From: Phycisphaerales bacterium | Lineage (GTDB): Bacteria; Planctomycetota; Phycisphaerae; UBA1845; PWPN01 | Assembly: GCA_012729595.1 (NCBI GenBank) | Contig: JAAYCU010000242.1 | Location: 1 to 34,893, forward strand | Direction of reading: 5' to 3' | DNA length: 34,893 bases | Shown: positions 25,708-34,603 of the stretch, in pieces | Layout of the letters: each line of letters opens with the position of its first letter | Numbering within the stretch: the stretch's first letter is position 1 | Notes under the pieces: generated by a model | Seen by the model: only the letters and a program-made list of their open reading frames with translations | Databases searched by the model: none | What the model was told of the DNA's origin: nothing | Position numbers and translations under genes: made by a program

Positions 25708-25967
25708 ACAACCCTACGCCAGATGAGCGGTCGCCTACTCAAGCAATAGGCCGAAGAGGCGCGGACCTCCGATCACGAACCGATTGCGTATCCGCAAGAA
25801 AATATCAATATTCGCCACATTCCACAAGTGATTGAATCAGAGGCGCACCAATAACGCGAGGGTGTACAAGCCTGCATCAAAGAGATATCGTATCACTCAA
25901 ATATGTGTTTGCGGGCACGGGCCGGCCACACTCTCCAACGACTCCTTTCGCGAGGTTAAGACGCACT

Positions 25968-28900
25968 ATGTTCAATCGTGTCAAGAAAACCGTTTCAGAT
26001 GTCATCCTGATTACATTGTTATTCATCGCGACCTCGACGTGTCGATGCACGAGTTCAGGATCAAAAATGGAACAAGGTTTCCAGGCACCGCCAGAAAGCA
26101 CCAAACCCTGGGTCTATTGGTACTGGGTCAGCGGCCATATCTCAAAGGAAGGGATTACCCGCGACCTTGAAGCCATGGCCCGGGTCGGGATCGGCGAAGC
26201 CTTTATCGGGAATGTGGACGTTAACGAGGACCATCGCGGCCCGATTCAGATCCTGTCGGAAGAGTGGTGGGACATGATCGAGCACGCCATTCGCGAGGGT
26301 GGGCGACTGGGCGTACGGGTGGGCATGTTTAACTGTCCAGGCTGGAGCCAGTCCGGCGGGCCCTGGGTCAAGCCCGATCAGACCATGCGATACTTGGCCA
26401 TCTCGGAGACCCGAATCAGCGGCCCCATCAAATTCGAGGGGGTTCTGCCCGCGCCCAACGAGGAGTTCCAGGATATCGCCGTACTGGCCTTCCCCGCGCC
26501 GGCGTCCGATACCGATTCCGTGTCCATGCGCGGACCGCGCATCACGGCCAGCCCGGAAACCCCGGATGTCGCAAACCTCTTTGACGGCGACATGGGAACG
26601 GTATGCACTATCCCGGAAAACACGACAAGCGATGCCCCCTTTGTAATCGATCTGGAAATGGAAGAGCCATTCACTGCCCGAAGTCTCGTATTTCATCCGG
26701 CCACGACACCCTTTATCGTGCAATGCGAATTACAGGCGGCCGATGAGAACGGCGCTTTCAAAACGGTACGCACCCTGACGATCGATCGATCCAACCCCAA
26801 TATCCATGTCGGCTTCATGCCTTTTGGGCCGGTCGCAGTGGCCTTTCCGTCGGCAACCTCGCAACACTTCCGGCTGGTATTAACCGAACTACAGCCACGT
26901 GGAGTCTTGGCCGAGATCGAACTGACCGGCGGCGCCCGTCTCGAACGATTTGTCGAAAAACAACTGGGAAAAATGTTCCAATTACCAATGCCCCAATGGG
27001 ACAGCTATCTCTGGCCTACGCAAGCGGAGCCGGACGGGGCCAACCTGGCGGTTGAGTCCGAGCAGGTTATTGATCTTTCCGCAAACCTGACGGCCGAAGG
27101 AGCGTTTTCCTGGGAAGTCCCGGAAGGCGAATGGATCGTGTTACGCACGGGGATGTCCCCCACCGGTGTCCAGAACGCGCCCGCGGCACCGGAAGCAACG
27201 GGTTACGAAATAGACAAGATGAATCGGCAACTGATCGCAATACACTTCGATGCCTTCATCGGGCAGGTTCTAAGACGAATGCCCCCCGCTGACCGCACCG
27301 CCTTTTTGCGAGTTGTGGCCGACAGTTACGAGATGGGCTCGCTGAACTGGACGGACGGATTTGCCGAAAGATTCCAGCAACGCTATGGATACGACCCGCT
27401 GCATTGGCTACCAGTGTTAACCGGCCGAATTGTCGAGAGCGCGGAACAGTCTGACCGTTTCCTGTGGGACATGCGACGGCTGATCGCCGATCGGGTCGCT
27501 TATGACTACGTCGGCGGGTTGCGTGAAGAATGTGAAAAACACGGCCTGCGTCTGTGGTTGGAGAATTACGGTCACTGGGGCTTCCCGGCCGAGTTCCTGC
27601 AGTACGGCGGCCAGTCACACGACCTCGGTGGTGAATTCTGGGCGGACCACGACCTGGGCAAAATCGAACGACGAGCCGCGGCCTCCGCTGCCCACATCTA
27701 TGGCAAACCAGTGGTATCCGCCGAAGCGTTCACATCCTCCAGTGGGCTTTGGACAATGAATCCGTGGACGATCAAAAAGCGGGGCGACAGCACCAGCACC
27801 GAGGGGATAAACCATTTCGTACTCCACGTGTACGTCCACCAGCCGCATGAGGACCGGATTCCCGGCATTAACACCTGGTTCGGACTGGAATTCAACCGTC
27901 ATAACACATGGTTCGATCAGACCGAAGAGTGGATCAAATACCTGCGACGCAAACATTTTCTCCTGCAACAAGGTCACTTTGCCGCTGACATCGCCTACTT
28001 CATTGGCGAGGACACTCCCAAAATGACCGGAATTCTCGAACCGGAGCTACCCCCCGGCTATTCCTTCGACTGGATTAACGCCGAGGTCATCGAACAGCGT
28101 TTACAGGTCAAGGACGGAAAATTCGTTCTGCCGGACGGGATGTCCTACCGCCTCTTGATACTGCCCGAAGGCGCATCGATGCGGCCGTCATTACTGCGCA
28201 AGATACGCGACTTGGTCAAAGCCGGTGGAGCCATTCTCGGTACACCGCCGACACAGTCGCCCAGCCTGGAAAACTACCCGGCCTGCGACGACGAGGTACG
28301 CCGACTGGCCGACGAAATCTGGGCCGGATGCAACGATAACCATGCCACCATGACCCGCCTCGGCAAGGGCCTTGTGTTTCGGAAAACGTGCGTACAGAAG
28401 GCCCTGGACGAACTGAAGGTGCCCCCGGATGTCACCGGGCTCGACACAAAGATGTCCCCCTGGATTCACCGGACGACTTCGGAAGGCGAGATTTATTTCA
28501 TCGCGTACCAAGGTGACGAACCAACAAGCATTGCCCCCTCTTTTCGCGTCACCGGTCGTCAACCCGAGCTGTGGGACGCAGTGACCGGGCGATTCCGTGA
28601 TCTTCCGGCTTTCACGCAGGACAATAACCATACTTCCGTGCCGCTGGAAATCGCGCCCCGCCAATCGCTGTTCATCGTCTTCCGTAAACCGGCGGAAAGC
28701 GCCCCACGAGCGGCGACAAACTTCCCGCCGCTGACCACAGTCGAAGAATTAAGCGGCGACTGGAGAGTGCGATTCGATCCCCAATGGGGTGGACCACAAT
28801 CCGTCGTATTCGACGGACTGCTGGATTGGAGCCAGCACCCCGATGATGGGATCAAATACTATAGCGGAACGGCCACGTACAAGAAGGTTTTCGATCTGCC

Positions 28901-29213
28901 GGACGCGGCCGTGCAAAAACGGGTTTATCTCGACCTGGGAGAGGTTAAAGACATGGGGCGCGTACGGCTGAACGGCACCGATCTAGGCCTTATATGGTGC
29001 GCCCCCTGGCATGTGGATATCACGGACGTAGCACAAGCTAAGGATAATGTGCTGGAAATCGACGTGGTGAACACCTGGGCAAACCGGATTATCGGTGACT
29101 GCAAGCTGCCTGCGGATCAACGGCTGACTTGGACAATTCATCCCCACTTCGGCCCGGATTCGCCACTGCTGCCCGCCGGTCTGCTCGGACCGGTCACGCT
29201 CCGCGTGGAGTAG
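25968..29213 (+). CDS. GH106-like alpha-L-rhamnosidase, predicted lipoprotein
   Basis: The 1081-residue product opens with a basic and then hydrophobic signal (VSDVILITLLFIATSTC), where Cys22 may be lipidated. The sequence PESTKPWVYWYWVSGHISKE, then GITRDLEAMARVGIGEAFIG, is the typical N-terminal block of the GH106 family, which removes L-rhamnose from plant, algal or bacterial glycans. Further blocks are RVGMFNCPGWSQSGGPWV, DSYEMGSLNWTDGFAERF and LWLENYGHWGFPAEFLQYGG. The last ~150 residues (GTATYKKVFDLPD, VYLDLGEVKDMGRVRLNGTD) form a galactose-binding-like sandwich. The frame extends to 25905; the ATG at 25968 has GAGGTTAAG upstream. The glycan operon 107 bp downstream suggests a polysaccharide-use region. 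Confidence 0.85.
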   Translation: MFNRVKKTVSDVILITLLFIATSTCRCTSSGSKMEQGFQAPPESTKPWVYWYWVSGHISKEGITRDLEAMARVGIGEAFIGNVDVNEDHRGPIQILSEEWWDMIEHAIREGGRLGVRVGMFNCPGWSQSGGPWVKPDQTMRYLAISETRISGPIKFEGVLPAPNEEFQDIAVLAFPAPASDTDSVSMRGPRITASPETPDVANLFDGDMGTVCTIPENTTSDAPFVIDLEMEEPFTARSLVFHPATTPFIVQCELQAADENGAFKTVRTLTIDRSNPNIHVGFMPFGPVAVAFPSATSQHFRLVLTELQPRGVLAEIELTGGARLERFVEKQLGKMFQLPMPQWDSYLWPTQAEPDGANLAVESEQVIDLSANLTAEGAFSWEVPEGEWIVLRTGMSPTGVQNAPAAPEATGYEIDKMNRQLIAIHFDAFIGQVLRRMPPADRTAFLRVVADSYEMGSLNWTDGFAERFQQRYGYDPLHWLPVLTGRIVESAEQSDRFLWDMRRLIADRVAYDYVGGLREECEKHGLRLWLENYGHWGFPAEFLQYGGQSHDLGGEFWADHDLGKIERRAAASAAHIYGKPVVSAEAFTSSSGLWTMNPWTIKKRGDSTSTEGINHFVLHVYVHQPHEDRIPGINTWFGLEFNRHNTWFDQTEEWIKYLRRKHFLLQQGHFAADIAYFIGEDTPKMTGILEPELPPGYSFDWINAEVIEQRLQVKDGKFVLPDGMSYRLLILPEGASMRPSLLRKIRDLVKAGGAILGTPPTQSPSLENYPACDDEVRRLADEIWAGCNDNHATMTRLGKGLVFRKTCVQKALDELKVPPDVTGLDTKMSPWIHRTTSEGEIYFIAYQGDEPTSIAPSFRVTGRQPELWDAVTGRFRDLPAFTQDNNHTSVPLEIAPRQSLFIVFRKPAESAPRAATNFPPLTTVEELSGDWRVRFDPQWGGPQSVVFDGLLDWSQHPDDGIKYYSGTATYKKVFDLPDAAVQKRVYLDLGEVKDMGRVRLNGTDLGLIWCAPWHVDITDVAQAKDNVLEIDVVNTWANRIIGDCKLPADQRLTWTIHPHFGPDSPLLPAGLLGPVTLRVE

Positions 29214-29319: not shown

Positions 29320-29988
29320 GTGCATGCATCTGATCCATATCCGTTGTCAGCGGTTATCGTAGTCGCCCACCCCGACGACGAGACCCTCTGGGCCGGTGGC
29401 GAGATACTGGCCCATCCGGATTGGGAATGGTTTATCATCAGCCTTTGCCGGGCCTCGGATGTGGATCGCTCGGTCCGCTTTCGGCGGGCCTTGGAACAAC
29501 TCAACGCCACGGGATGCATGGCCGACCTGGACGACGGCCCGGAACAAGCCCCCCTGCCCTCGGAACTGATCCGCCAAACGATCCTGTCCCTGCTGCCCGA
29601 ACGGCCGTTGAATTGTATCTATACCCACGGTCCCGAAGGCGAGTACACCCGCCACCGCCGTCACGAGGAAGTCAGCCGGGCAGTCCACGAAGCTTGGACG
29701 GGCGGGCAAATCATCACCGAACAACTGCGGATGTTCGCCTACGAGGACGGGCAACGGAGCTATTATCCGCGGGCGATCGAATCGGCGCATATCCAGCGGT
29801 CATTGCCCGAGGCGTTATGGCAACGCAAGCATGCGATCATCGTTGACGTTTATGGGTTTTCGCCAGGAAGCTGGGAAGCCCAAACCACTCCCCGCGAGGA
29901 GGCGTTCTGGAGTTTCGATTCGCCGGCAGGTTGCGCGGAATGGATAAGACGGAAAGGAAACTCAAATGAAAGTGCTCGTGCTGTATGA
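29320..29988 (+). CDS. PIG-L/LmbE-family deacetylase
   Basis: A zinc-dependent hydrolase that removes acetyl groups from N-acetylglucosamine-type sugars. Motif AHPDDE lies at residues 16-21 and supplies two zinc ligands and the catalytic Asp. HRRHEEVSRAV near residue 110 gives the third ligand. The 222-residue size fits MshB/BshB-like enzymes. The start is a GTG; AAAGG lies about 15 nt upstream, so the exact start is uncertain. The last 23 bp overlap the glycosyltransferase gene, so the two are coupled. The product may deacetylate the sugar joined by that enzyme (inference). Confidence 0.85.
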   Translation: MHASDPYPLSAVIVVAHPDDETLWAGGEILAHPDWEWFIISLCRASDVDRSVRFRRALEQLNATGCMADLDDGPEQAPLPSELIRQTILSLLPERPLNCIYTHGPEGEYTRHRRHEEVSRAVHEAWTGGQIITEQLRMFAYEDGQRSYYPRAIESAHIQRSLPEALWQRKHAIIVDVYGFSPGSWEAQTTPREEAFWSFDSPAGCAEWIRRKGNSNESARAV

Positions 29989-31108
29989 TTACCCGCCCTC
30001 GCCCGGCGGGTTGGCTACTCAGGGCGATCTGCTTTACAAGGGGCTTCTACAATCGGGCATCGAAGCCCAGGCGGTGCATTTCGAGTCCGCTCAGGAGAAG
30101 GAATGGTATTACCGGTGGTTCAAGCCGGACGTTGTCGTCGGCATTGGCTACTGGGGGCATACACCGCATCTGATCCTGCACCCGCAGCGCTATGGCGTTC
30201 AAGCCGTCCCCTGGCTGGTGGCCGACGGTTACATCGCCAACTACCATGAAGTCCTCAACGCCCTGCCGCTGATTCTGGTCACCTCGAACTGGGTGAAGGA
30301 CGTATATATCCGCGACGGCATCAAGGGCGACAACATTCAGGTGCTGCCCGTCGGCTGCGACACGGACAGCTTTCTTCCGCGCGATCCCTCCGATCCCAAA
30401 GTCGCGGTTGTTCGTGAAGCCCTGGGCGTCGGGACCGATGAACTGATGATCCTCACCATCGGCGGAGACGCCGCCTCGAAAGGCGCTCAGGAAGTCATGC
30501 AGGCCCTGGCCTTGCTCGGCCGGGAGGTGCCGCCCTGGAAATACGTCTGCAAGGTCTGGCCGCAGCCGCGAACCGAGGCCCAGACCCTCATGGACATGAA
30601 ACTCGCCACCCAACTGGGGATCGAAAAGCACGTGGTATTCACGTCCAACGTCGTCTCGCGCAACTTCACCCCATACTTGCTGGATGCCTGCGATATCTAC
30701 GCCGCCCCCTCGCGTCTGGAGGGCTTCGGTATGCCTCAGGTCGAGGCCAACGCCTGTGGGAAACCGGTCATCGGCATCAAGGCCATGGCCATGCTGGACA
30801 CCCTCGTGCATGGCGAAACGGCGTTCCTGGCCGACGTGGCCACGGAAGTGCGAATCGGAGAAACCATCCTGGGCCGTGAGTCCGGATTCGAGGAGGGCCA
30901 TCGGGTGGTGTTCCAGAATTTTCGCACGGCCGACTATCGGGCCAGCGTGTACGATATCGCCGACCACCTGCGCAGGTTGATGGCGGAGCCCGACCTGAGG
31001 CGGCGGATGGGCGAGGCCGGTCGAGCCCGGGTCAAGGCAATGTACGATTATCGGGTAGTGGCCCAACAGTTCGTGCAGTATGTCCAGGAACATCTGGGGA
31101 TATCCTGA
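29966..31108 (+). CDS. GT4-family glycosyltransferase
   Basis: This 380-residue protein has the GT-B fold. An N-terminal Rossmann-like part has VLVLYDYPPSPGGLATQGDL for acceptor binding. The C-terminal nucleotide-sugar domain has PVGCDTDSFLPRD and LTIGGDAASKGAQEVMQAL. It also carries the donor-site block YAAPSRLEGFGMPQVEANAC with GKPVIGI, where the E-x7-E motif is visible. Retaining GT4 enzymes move glucose, mannose, GlcNAc and similar residues. GGAAAGGAAA precedes the ATG. It overlaps the LmbE gene by 23 bp and is followed by a GH100-like gene after 1 bp, so the three form one operon. Acceptor and donor are not known. Confidence 0.88.
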   Translation: MKVLVLYDYPPSPGGLATQGDLLYKGLLQSGIEAQAVHFESAQEKEWYYRWFKPDVVVGIGYWGHTPHLILHPQRYGVQAVPWLVADGYIANYHEVLNALPLILVTSNWVKDVYIRDGIKGDNIQVLPVGCDTDSFLPRDPSDPKVAVVREALGVGTDELMILTIGGDAASKGAQEVMQALALLGREVPPWKYVCKVWPQPRTEAQTLMDMKLATQLGIEKHVVFTSNVVSRNFTPYLLDACDIYAAPSRLEGFGMPQVEANACGKPVIGIKAMAMLDTLVHGETAFLADVATEVRIGETILGRESGFEEGHRVVFQNFRTADYRASVYDIADHLRRLMAEPDLRRRMGEAGRARVKAMYDYRVVAQQFVQYVQEHLGIS

Positions 31109-31109
31109 A

Positions 31110-32303
31110 ATGAAAACATCTCTAAACGATGATGTGGAACAGGCTCGGCAGGCGGCGGTGGAGGTTTTACTCCACAATCTGAACGGGCCGTGCCGCGGGC
31201 TACCGCGGACCGCGGGGTGGGGCTACCCTGAGCCGTATACCCGCGATCTGATGATTTCCTCGCTGGGTTTTCTGGTCAGCGGCAACCGTGAGTTGATCGA
31301 CGCCCATCGCCGGGTGCTGGAGAACCTGGCCGAGAATCAAACGCCCCTCGGTCATATTCCCTCGCTGGCCCATGATCCCTCGGATGTGGGGGCCTCCGAC
31401 ACGACCCCGTTGTTCCTGTTCGGTCTGGGGCTGTACCGACGATTTACCGGGAAAAACAGTTTTCTGTCCGCCGCCGCGAAAAAGGCCCTGCAATGGATGC
31501 GCTACCAGAGCCCGGACGACATGATCATGGTCGCGCAGCAGCCCACCACCGACTGGCGCGACGAACAATGGGTGCTCGGTTACGGCCTGTACGTCAACAC
31601 CATCGTCCATGCCTATCTGCAACTGTTAGGCCAGGATGAGGACGCCGCACTCCTGAAAAAGCTGATGAACCGCCTGGACGTGCGCGGCTCGAAACGTCAA
31701 CGTCACGTTCATGAGGGATTCGTGGTCCCCTTCAAGCCCTATTACGCCCTGTGGTCTTTCAAAATCTTCAACAGCGAGCGATTCGATCTGCTGGGCAACA
31801 GCCTGGCCATTTTGTGCGGTATCGCCAGTACCTCCCGGGCCCGGGAACTGGTCAGTTGGATTGAAATGGAATGCGCAGCCCTGCGCGAGCGTGGACATCT
31901 GATCAGCCGCCTGCCGCCCTGCTTCTTCCCGTACATCCAGCCGGGCGAGCCGGACTGGCGGCCCCGCTATGAACAATACAACCGGCCGGGCGACTACCAT
32001 AACGGCGGGATATGGCCTTTTATTTGCGGGTTCTATGTGGCCGCCTGCGTCGCCGCCGGCCGGCAGCGTCTGGCCGAGGAAAAACTGATCGATCTGACCC
32101 GTCTGGTCCGGCCGGCCCGCAAGGCGACAGTGGCCTTCGGTTTCAACGAATGGATCAAGGCCCAGAACGACGCCCCGAGCGGACAGGACTGGCAGACCTG
32201 GTCGGCGGCCATGTACCTCTACGCCGTCGAATGCGTGCGGAGTAAACGCACCCCATTTTTCGATGAAATCCGGGGCACGGACAAGGGCGTTGAAACACCG
32301 TGA
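31110..32303 (+). CDS. GH100-like alkaline/neutral invertase-type hydrolase
   Basis: The 397-residue product is an all-helical (alpha/alpha)6 barrel type. WGYPEPYTRDLMISSLGFLV contains Asp46 at the place of the catalytic acid of GH100 invertases. FNEWIKAQNDAPSGQDWQTW, followed by SAAMYLYA, carries Glu347 at the place of the catalytic base. The GGIWPFICGFYVAAC block is also typical. GH100 enzymes split sucrose into glucose and fructose, but distant relatives act on other disaccharides, so sucrose is not certain. The frame extends into the upstream gene; the ATG at 31110, 1 bp after its stop, fits best, with GGGGATATCC upstream. Third gene of the LmbE/GT4 operon. Confidence 0.8.
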   Translation: MKTSLNDDVEQARQAAVEVLLHNLNGPCRGLPRTAGWGYPEPYTRDLMISSLGFLVSGNRELIDAHRRVLENLAENQTPLGHIPSLAHDPSDVGASDTTPLFLFGLGLYRRFTGKNSFLSAAAKKALQWMRYQSPDDMIMVAQQPTTDWRDEQWVLGYGLYVNTIVHAYLQLLGQDEDAALLKKLMNRLDVRGSKRQRHVHEGFVVPFKPYYALWSFKIFNSERFDLLGNSLAILCGIASTSRARELVSWIEMECAALRERGHLISRLPPCFFPYIQPGEPDWRPRYEQYNRPGDYHNGGIWPFICGFYVAACVAAGRQRLAEEKLIDLTRLVRPARKATVAFGFNEWIKAQNDAPSGQDWQTWSAAMYLYAVECVRSKRTPFFDEIRGTDKGVETP

Positions 32304-32495: not shown

Positions 32496-34121
32496 TTACT
32501 CCACCGCCGCCCCCTTCAGGGCAGCGCGGGCCGATTCGACCGCTTCCAGGATTTCCGGCAGAAATTCCTCCGCCGCCTTGGCCCGCGCGAAGCGTTCGAA
32601 TGCATCGAGCATCATTTCCGCCTCGCGAATGGAAGAGGCCACTCTCGGACCGCGTCCATCGACGGTGATATAGATCGGGCTGGTATGGGCGAACCGCAAT
32701 CGGCACGGCGCATTTCCATGCCTCGATTCCAGACGATAGCCAGCCAATTCTTCATCGGGAAGCAGCAGGTCTTCCTCGGTGCAGCGTGCTGCCACCCAGG
32801 AGCCTTCCTCAATGGCCTGAGTAACGGTCAGTTCGGCCGAGCGTGCGTCCGGACCGACGGGCGTGCTGCCGACCACCCGGCCGTTCACCACGATCTCCAG
32901 TGAACGCAGCGGCTGTTCCGAAATGGCTTGAACATTGATCTTCAGCTTGCCGCCCGTTTGGGGCAAATCGACGGTATCACCCGGCCGTAAGGGCTCGCCC
33001 ACCCCGCTCGCCGGATCGACCGTAAGAAAGACCATCGGCCCGTTGGTGACAAAATTCCTTCCCTGTCGCCAGGCCTCGTAGAAATCAGCCAAGGTCGGAC
33101 GTTCTCCTGCCCGCACATAGGCGCGATTATAACCGACCGGCGCATCCTTCGCCCCGGTGGCCGTCCCCGCGCCGGCGGCCAGCCTCAACCCGCAGTTCAG
33201 CAGCCTGTAATACGTCTCCGTGTTCAGCCGCATCATGCCTTCCGGGGTGTCAGGATATTGGGGAAAACCCTCGACTTGCAGAAGATTCGAATACCGACTG
33301 CGCGGTTGAAACTTATGGCGATGAAAGTTGTTATTACAGACATTAACCACATCGACGAGTCCATTCAGGGCGTTGACCAGTACCTCGCGTGACCAACCGC
33401 CCTGATAGCAGATCAGCGCGCCATGGTCACGACCTTCCTTCACGTAGGCCAGGTTCGCCCTCCGCTGCTCGGCCTTCAGGGACAATGGTTGTCGGGGACC
33501 GATGATGTATACCGCACCCCAGACATGTTCAACTTCCGCGTCGAATACACTAAACGGGGTTGTCACGCCCCCGAACGACAGATCGACCGCCCATTTCCAA
33601 TCGGCAGGCAATTCTTCCCGCGGTCCGTTCCACCAGCTCAATATGGTGCCATAAGTCAGATTTTCGCCAGCCGGCATGACCGGAGCCTCGGCGGGCGTCA
33701 CGTGCAGGTGGTTCTCACCGCTGACGTAACCCCGGGCCCGCATGTCGATCCACCGCTCGAGCCCGGCCTCAAAACGTACCGTCCCCGTATCCGGAATAAC
33801 AATAGTGGTCTTGATCGGCCGATATTCCGTCCCCCGCTCGACGCGTATGATTACCTCGCCGGCCGGCAAGTCGATTTGTTCCACGCCGGCGGTATAAAAC
33901 CACCGGTCCTGAACGATCTGCAAGGTTACCGCATCCGGCGGAACATGGTCTTCCCCCCGAGCGTCTCGCACCCGCACCCGGGCGGGTACCGGTTGACCGG
34001 TCGCCGCGTCGATAACCGCCAGATCGAGGGTTCCGGCCATCCCGATCGACGTAATCAACCCCGTACTCGTCAGCACCAGCCACAGCCCGGCCCATCTTGA
34101 TTGCACCTTTGATCTGCGCAT
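32496..34121 (-). CDS. CehA/McbA-family metallohydrolase-like secreted protein
   Basis: The 541-residue product has a signal peptide (RWAGLWLVLTSTGLITSIGMAG) and a Transthyretin/CNA-B-like strand domain at about 30-120 (DAATGQPVPARVRVRD). The central region is PHP/CehA-like: GYVSGENHLHVTPAE (metal-binding H-x-H), DHGALICYQGGWSRE, VNVCNNNFHRHKF and CGLRLAAGAGTATGAK. A C-terminal beta-sandwich (NVQAISEQPLRSLEIVVNGR) and a helical tail follow. In the family these proteins hydrolyse or bind esters and carbamates, but most environmental members have no known substrate. The ATG at 34121 has AAGGA upstream and fits the signal peptide; the frame extends to 34157. The dtd stop at 34154 is 32 bp upstream, on the same strand. 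Confidence 0.78.
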   Translation of the reverse strand: MRRSKVQSRWAGLWLVLTSTGLITSIGMAGTLDLAVIDAATGQPVPARVRVRDARGEDHVPPDAVTLQIVQDRWFYTAGVEQIDLPAGEVIIRVERGTEYRPIKTTIVIPDTGTVRFEAGLERWIDMRARGYVSGENHLHVTPAEAPVMPAGENLTYGTILSWWNGPREELPADWKWAVDLSFGGVTTPFSVFDAEVEHVWGAVYIIGPRQPLSLKAEQRRANLAYVKEGRDHGALICYQGGWSREVLVNALNGLVDVVNVCNNNFHRHKFQPRSRYSNLLQVEGFPQYPDTPEGMMRLNTETYYRLLNCGLRLAAGAGTATGAKDAPVGYNRAYVRAGERPTLADFYEAWRQGRNFVTNGPMVFLTVDPASGVGEPLRPGDTVDLPQTGGKLKINVQAISEQPLRSLEIVVNGRVVGSTPVGPDARSAELTVTQAIEEGSWVAARCTEEDLLLPDEELAGYRLESRHGNAPCRLRFAHTSPIYITVDGRGPRVASSIREAEMMLDAFERFARAKAAEEFLPEILEAVESARAALKGAAVE

Positions 34122-34153
34122 GGTCGTGATCCTTATATTAATCCCTTCAATCC

Positions 34154-34603
34154 TCAAAAAGTCCGCTCTGAATCCAACAGGATACTTACAGGGCCGTCGT
34201 TGAGGCAGTGTACATGCATGTGCGCGCGGAAAACACCACGAGCCACCTGTAACCCGGCGTGTTCAAGCTCCATGCAGAGCTGGTTATAAAACGACTCCGC
34301 CATTTCCGGCCCGGCGGCCGGATCGAACGACGGCCGACGACCCTTGCGGGCGTCGGCCTGGAGGGCGAAGGCGCTGATGACCAGTACACCCCCGCCGATA
34401 TCGGCGACGCTGAGATTCATTTTGCCCTGGTCATCGTTGAATATGCGCAGGTTGGCGATTTTATCAGCCAGATAGGCCACGTCCGCGGTATCGTCGTTCC
34501 GCCCCACGCCAACGTATACCAACAGCCCCGCCCCGATTGCCCCAACCACTTCCCCATCGACGCTGACCGACGCTTCATCAACCCGTTGCACGATCGCCCG
34601 CAT
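34154..34603 (-). CDS. dtd: D-aminoacyl-tRNA deacylase
   Basis: Removes D-amino acids and glycine wrongly attached to tRNA. The 149-residue protein starts MRAIVQRVDEASVSVDGEVV, the typical Dtd N-terminus. It has ISAFALQADARKGRRPSF (the S-x-F catalytic loop region) and NDGPVSILLDSERTF, with the Gly-Pro dipeptide of the chirality-sensing motif. Length is normal. The ATG at 34603 has GGGAG 7 nt upstream; a TTG one codon earlier is possible. The CehA-like gene follows 32 bp downstream. Confidence 0.95.
   Translation of the reverse strand: MRAIVQRVDEASVSVDGEVVGAIGAGLLVYVGVGRNDDTADVAYLADKIANLRIFNDDQGKMNLSVADIGGGVLVISAFALQADARKGRRPSFDPAAGPEMAESFYNQLCMELEHAGLQVARGVFRAHMHVHCLNDGPVSILLDSERTF

Follow-up and report, generated by a model that had tools for sequence, protein, structure and literature searches.

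Three adjacent genes of a Phycisphaerales bacterium, encoding a PIG-L/LmbE-type de-N-acetylase, a GT4 glycosyltransferase and a GH100-like hydrolase, are a genuine unit, and their arrangement is maintained far beyond chance. The proteins belong to recognizable families and folds and have intact active-site motifs, and the genes co-occur almost obligately in a fixed order. We give an even chance to the proposal that these genes are a self-contained cassette that moves horizontally and serves to make and reclaim a small intracellular alpha-glucosaminide.

Organization of the locus

The window (the whole stretch of DNA analysed, 34,893 nt) contains the following features around the trio:

25905..29213, plus strand: GH106 alpha-L-rhamnosidase (Pfam Glyco_hydro_106, 728 bits); context, outside the conserved unit
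29320..29988, plus strand: PIG-L/LmbE-type de-N-acetylase; GTG start, 222 aa, with AHPDDE (residues 16-21) and GEYTRHRRH (residues 107-115)
29966..31108, plus strand: GT4 glycosyltransferase; 380 aa, GT-B fold, E252-x7-E260 motif
31110..32303, plus strand: GH100-like (alpha/alpha)6 hydrolase; 397 aa from the conserved ATG (the ORF opens at 31080)
32496..34157, minus strand: CehA/McbA-family metallohydrolase (NCBIfam NF038032, 105.8 bits versus a cut-off of 80); context

The LmbE, GT4 and hydrolase ORFs were all confirmed on the plus strand as a tight operon (ORF listing, Pfam). Each product scores above its Pfam cut-off: 35.3 bits for PIG-L (cut-off 28.2), 76.8 bits for Glycos_transf_1 (cut-off 26.4) and, for the hydrolase, 43.7 bits for Glyco_hydro_100 (cut-off 23.6; C-terminal half only) and 33.5 bits for GDE_C (cut-off 21). 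The operon of a deacetylase, a GT4 enzyme and a GH100-like hydrolase described in the first-pass annotation is thus confirmed, as is the overlap reported there between its first two genes: the 23 nt shared by LmbE and GT4 look real because relatives preserve the GT4 start (MKVLVLYDYP) and show a median spacing of −4 nt. The 29-nt overlap between GT4 and the hydrolase is a start-codon artefact, since relatives and the family profile begin at the ATG at 31110 (hydrolase residue M11), which stands 1 nt past the GT4 stop.

The GH106 gene lies upstream of LmbE on the same strand, across a gap of 106 nt, and was excluded from the unit: a homologue is absent from the loci of eight relatives. The N-terminus of its product is lipoprotein-like. 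Downstream, the CehA/McbA-family gene is convergent with the trio and bounds the operon. The window gave no matches in Rfam or tRNA scans, a promoter scan found none and the matches of a terminator scan were near chance level.

Conservation and distribution of the trio

Two sets were searched, one of 101 genomes at the level of the order and one of 392 planctomycete genomes. Of the 101 order-level genomes, 10 have close homologues of GT4; these 10 and one further genome have LmbE homologues, and 9 of these 10 have the hydrolase; the order LmbE-GT4-hydrolase is kept in all order-level relatives that have the hydrolase (8/8). Genome G006, a candidate counterexample lacking the hydrolase, was rejected as such: its GT4 is interrupted just past residue 303 by a run of N, a scaffold gap. 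Across the phylum, GT4 and the hydrolase are confined to the identical 4 of 392 genomes and are adjacent every time.

When 84,980 genomes, one for each species, were scanned for the hydrolase, 416 stretches encoding it were confirmed, of which the best 80 were kept. Among these, the trio is colinear in 59 of the 61 loci with enough upstream DNA, with median spacings of −4 nt (LmbE/GT4) and 2 nt (GT4/hydrolase). LmbE is missing next to GT4 in four of the best 80 loci (L062, L101, L076 and L092), and in two of their four genomes (MAGs) no trio-family LmbE was found. Over 60 loci from the same 80, mean identity is 73% for GT4, 66% for the hydrolase and 52% for LmbE, and the distances of the three proteins co-vary (Mantel r = 0.76-0.85). 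The neighbourhood survey suggested in the first-pass annotation thus found the trio not to be scattered, and a chance neighbourhood is ruled out by the 8/8 relatives, the 59/61 loci and the co-occurrence in 4/392 genomes.

Among the best 80 of the 416 stretches, the hydrolase occurs patchily in about ten phyla: Planctomycetota, Bacteroidota, Acidobacteriota, Thermodesulfobacteriota, Chloroflexota, Spirochaetota, Myxococcota, Aminicenantes, one Pseudomonadota MAG and one ANME-2 MAG. The hydrolase tree built from them has 12 phylum changes versus a minimum of 8, and its Bacteroidota group includes an Anaerolineales complete chromosome, a Syntrophales and an ANME-2 record. Spread by horizontal transfer is the simplest reading of this tree, with the proviso that MAG binning errors can mimic it for single records. 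No description of this gene combination was found in open-access PMC text.

Active sites and folds of the three enzymes

NCBIfam has no model for either LmbE or the hydrolase. The metal motif of LmbE (HxDD + H) is present as H17-x-D19-D20 and H115; over 32 loci H17, D19 and D20 are near-invariant, and H112 and H115 invariant. The HxDD and the second histidine pair correspond to His13/Asp15/Asp16 and His144/His147 of MshB (PMC4101496), H112 being the counterpart of His144. The D20-H115 spacing of 95 is slightly under the reported 97-148, and the position of MshB Asp146 is occupied by Arg114, which may have a bearing on substrate. Two side observations concern this family. An orphan LmbE homologue in G001 (L138:2099-2764, contig C632; 43% identity), accompanied by neither GT4 nor hydrolase, has lost both metal motifs (ACPIEE, GEYTESLRSEE) and is likely a decayed relic of the trio. 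Cultivated Maribellus maritimus 5E3 (L118, genome G105) has two trio-family LmbE genes and possibly two copies of the trio.

In GT4, E252 and E260 are invariant, and the motif EGFGM..[VI]E is found in 72/72 loci (among the best 80 of 416). Many NCBIfam GT4 models are matched, none of them near its cut-off. A fold search with the GT4 model ranks GT4 structures first; the neighbours include sucrose-phosphate synthase, GlgM, TreT, MshA and BshA, and several different sugar nucleotides are used among them.

The hydrolase carries DWRDE in 79/79 loci and FNEW in 77/79 (among the best 80 of 416). With its AF2 model (pLDDT 84.8), the top 28 PDB matches are all GH100 (TM ~0.6-0.7), and GH100 invertases rank ahead of GDE-type amylo-1,6-glucosidase, which is followed by glucosylglycerate and mannosylglycerate hydrolases. 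The alkaline/neutral invertases of GH100 (InvA, InvB, CINV) are thus its best PDB matches by profile and fold; however, the trio enzyme is ~50 residues shorter and shares 17-20% identity with them in the fold alignment, at a TM of ~0.65. The earlier description of the third gene as invertase-like therefore holds for its GH100-like family, above the Pfam cut-off, and not for activity: the relationship is distant and cleavage of sucrose should not be assumed. The glucosylglycerate hydrolase MhGgH and mannosylglycerate hydrolase, inverting enzymes acting on small intracellular solutes, share the (alpha/alpha)6 fold (match E ~1e-7) but only 13-15% identity. The partner synthases in glucosylglycerate and mannosylglycerate systems are of the GpgS/GpgP type, with no deacetylase. 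Glucosylglycerate hydrolase is a small-solute enzyme with an Asp/Glu inverting pair (PMC6608630). In profile alignments, D158/D161 of the trio hydrolase align with SDW.D of a sister hydrolase family and E357 with the C-terminal Glu region of GH100; D161 (or D158) would be the acid and E357 the base. No signal peptide is apparent in the sequences, nor an export signal in the hydrolase. The trio defines a GH100-related subfamily for which the labels invertase and glycogen debranching enzyme are unsuitable.

A proposed cassette for making and reclaiming a glycoside

The nearest non-trio homologues of the hydrolase in the order (L039-L044) adjoin an SPS-like GT4 and a sucrose-phosphatase-type (S6PP) HAD protein, in most cases with a PfkB fructokinase. 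Judged by family content, these would be cassettes for sucrose synthesis and cleavage. The sister hydrolases lack a good NCBIfam match; in an alignment, DWRDE and FNEW of the trio enzyme fall on their motifs SDW.D and F.EW. Both kinds of cassette combine a GT4 with a homologous (alpha/alpha)6 hydrolase, and hence synthesis with cleavage, in one operon. They differ in that the hydrolases share only ~25-30% identity, that LmbE occupies the place of the phosphatase (no sucrose-phosphate phosphatase was found next to the trio GT4) and that the sugar-salvage neighbour of the trio at L107 is NagB rather than fructokinase.

At L107 this NagB gene overlaps the end of the hydrolase gene (TIGR00502, 320.7 bits versus a cut-off of 236.9). 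In L082 and L093 (Desulfobacterota) LmbE is preceded by a SIS protein with matches to NagB-II and to the isomerase domain of GlmS, and a glucokinase follows the hydrolase. Such neighbours, which act on glucosamine or hexose phosphates, occur in three of the best 80 of 416 loci, the source window not being among them, and count as two independent cases since L082 and L093 are near-identical relatives. They suggest glucosamine as the sugar handled.

Together, the sister sucrose cassettes and the glucosamine-handling neighbours suggest a glucosaminide that is made and then cleaved. The original idea of an operon which makes and then trims a small glycoside fits best. GT4, a retaining enzyme, would move a sugar, most likely GlcNAc from UDP-GlcNAc, onto a small acceptor; LmbE would strip the N-acetyl group to leave an alpha-GlcN glycoside; and the GH100-like enzyme, by family an inverting alpha-glycosidase, would later cleave this product to glucosamine and the acceptor. 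The freed glucosamine would re-enter metabolism via a kinase and NagB or a NagB-II-like SIS enzyme. The donor, the order of the steps, glucosamine as the released sugar and a role as compatible solute or reserve are what we infer. Several points count against the glucosaminide model: its support from neighbours comes from three of the best 80 of 416 loci and no acceptor gene is linked; without regulation, synthase and hydrolase in one operon risk a futile cycle; LmbE-like enzymes also deacylate other substrates; and four of the 80 loci have no LmbE beside GT4.

Other genes recur near the trio. In 33 of the best 80 of 416 loci there is a joint cluster of GH130 phosphorylases, further GT4s and a GT4 fusion protein. 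The fusions (L058:5804-8101, L089:11227-13518, L120:2176-4689 and others) are 750-830 aa long; GT4 forms their N-terminal part, and the C-terminal part, to which Pfam assigns nothing, is helical-barrel-like by eye. They frequently adjoin GH130 phosphorylases and the trio. The genome studied here has its GH130 genes on other contigs than the trio; one of them (L134:155-1618, minus strand, contig C107, 487 aa) is 51% identical to trio-linked GH130s of other phyla. Stress genes are also found near the trio, Usp and DnaJ in Bacteroidota and Hsp20 in other phyla. In L078, L102 and L104 (Bacteroidota), SDR, DnaJ-like and VIT1-family genes, not all three everywhere, stand between GT4 and the hydrolase, and Usp or CheB genes nearby give a stress-island context.

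Alternative explanations

The sister family in sucrose cassettes, and GT4 fold neighbours such as sucrose-phosphate synthase, GlgM and TreT, would suit a sucrose- or trehalose-like solute cassette in which GT4 makes a neutral alpha-glycoside, the hydrolase cleaves it and LmbE removes another acyl group or acts separately. We regard this as unlikely: GT4 has its tightest linkage with LmbE (median −4 nt, best 80 of 416), which keeps its metal motif, the trio has no phosphatase, its neighbours include NagB, SIS and glucokinase genes, and the source genome already has an SPS/sucrose-synthase-like locus elsewhere (L136, recognized by eye).

Some GT4 enzymes, TreT and sucrose synthase among them, work in both directions. 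This property, together with the GH130 and extra GT4 genes near the trio in many loci, speaks for a module that breaks down or remodels scavenged amino-sugar oligosaccharides, with LmbE deacetylating, the hydrolase cleaving and GT4 either running in reverse or, together with the linked GH130 phosphorylases and other GT4s, building a reserve. Such a module appears quite improbable, as GH130 is missing at the window locus and in most of the best 80 of 416 loci, and neither a transporter nor a secreted hydrolase is conserved with the trio among those 80.

The pairing of a retaining GT4 with a PIG-L/LmbE deacetylase bearing HxDD + H is that of BshA/BshB and MshA/MshB, whose GT-B folds are similar (TM mostly 0.7-0.77). 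The trio differs in having a glycosidase as third gene and no cysteine ligase, and in a GT4 far under the NCBIfam equivalog cut-offs for BshA (34.6 bits versus 273.7) and MshA (62.7 bits versus 462.5). No match to BshC (PF10079) was found in the source genome, which is 97% complete (B. subtilis and two other controls were detected), and the best MshC match there, at a single locus, reaches 233.8 versus a cut-off of 485.1 and is CysS-like by this score. The suggestion of a thiol precursor was not borne out for the known bacillithiol and mycothiol routes, which were rejected on these scores and the ligases not found. We attach very little credence to an unknown thiol pathway, in which GT4 and LmbE would make a GlcN-aglycone, an unrecognized ligase encoded elsewhere would add cysteine and the hydrolase would recycle the product. 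The enzyme logic and the fold matches to MshA and BshA favour it, as do hosts among the Planctomycetes and Spirochaetes, in which a thiol is neither documented nor predicted (PMC6282198); against it stand the ligase and equivalog results above, and a presence in 10/101 relatives and 4/392 phylum members that is too patchy for a main redox buffer.

Envelope clusters commonly hold GT4 and PIG-L enzymes, but a role in envelope or exopolysaccharide biosynthesis can scarcely be entertained, given that the trio has no conserved polymerase, flippase or membrane gene beside it (best 80 of 416 loci), that GT4 is 73% identical on average across phyla, unlike typical envelope glycosyltransferases, and that the hydrolase has no export signal.

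Implications

With slightly less than even confidence, we suggest that the trio makes and recycles an undescribed alpha-glucosaminyl metabolite (a solute, a reserve or a thiol precursor) and is mobile across about ten phyla. If true, an alpha-glucosaminyl cassette reaches lineages with no known low-molecular-weight thiol. A compact trio kept across distant phyla offers a promising route to a new intracellular metabolite, and its product is directly testable in a cultivated host, Maribellus maritimus 5E3.
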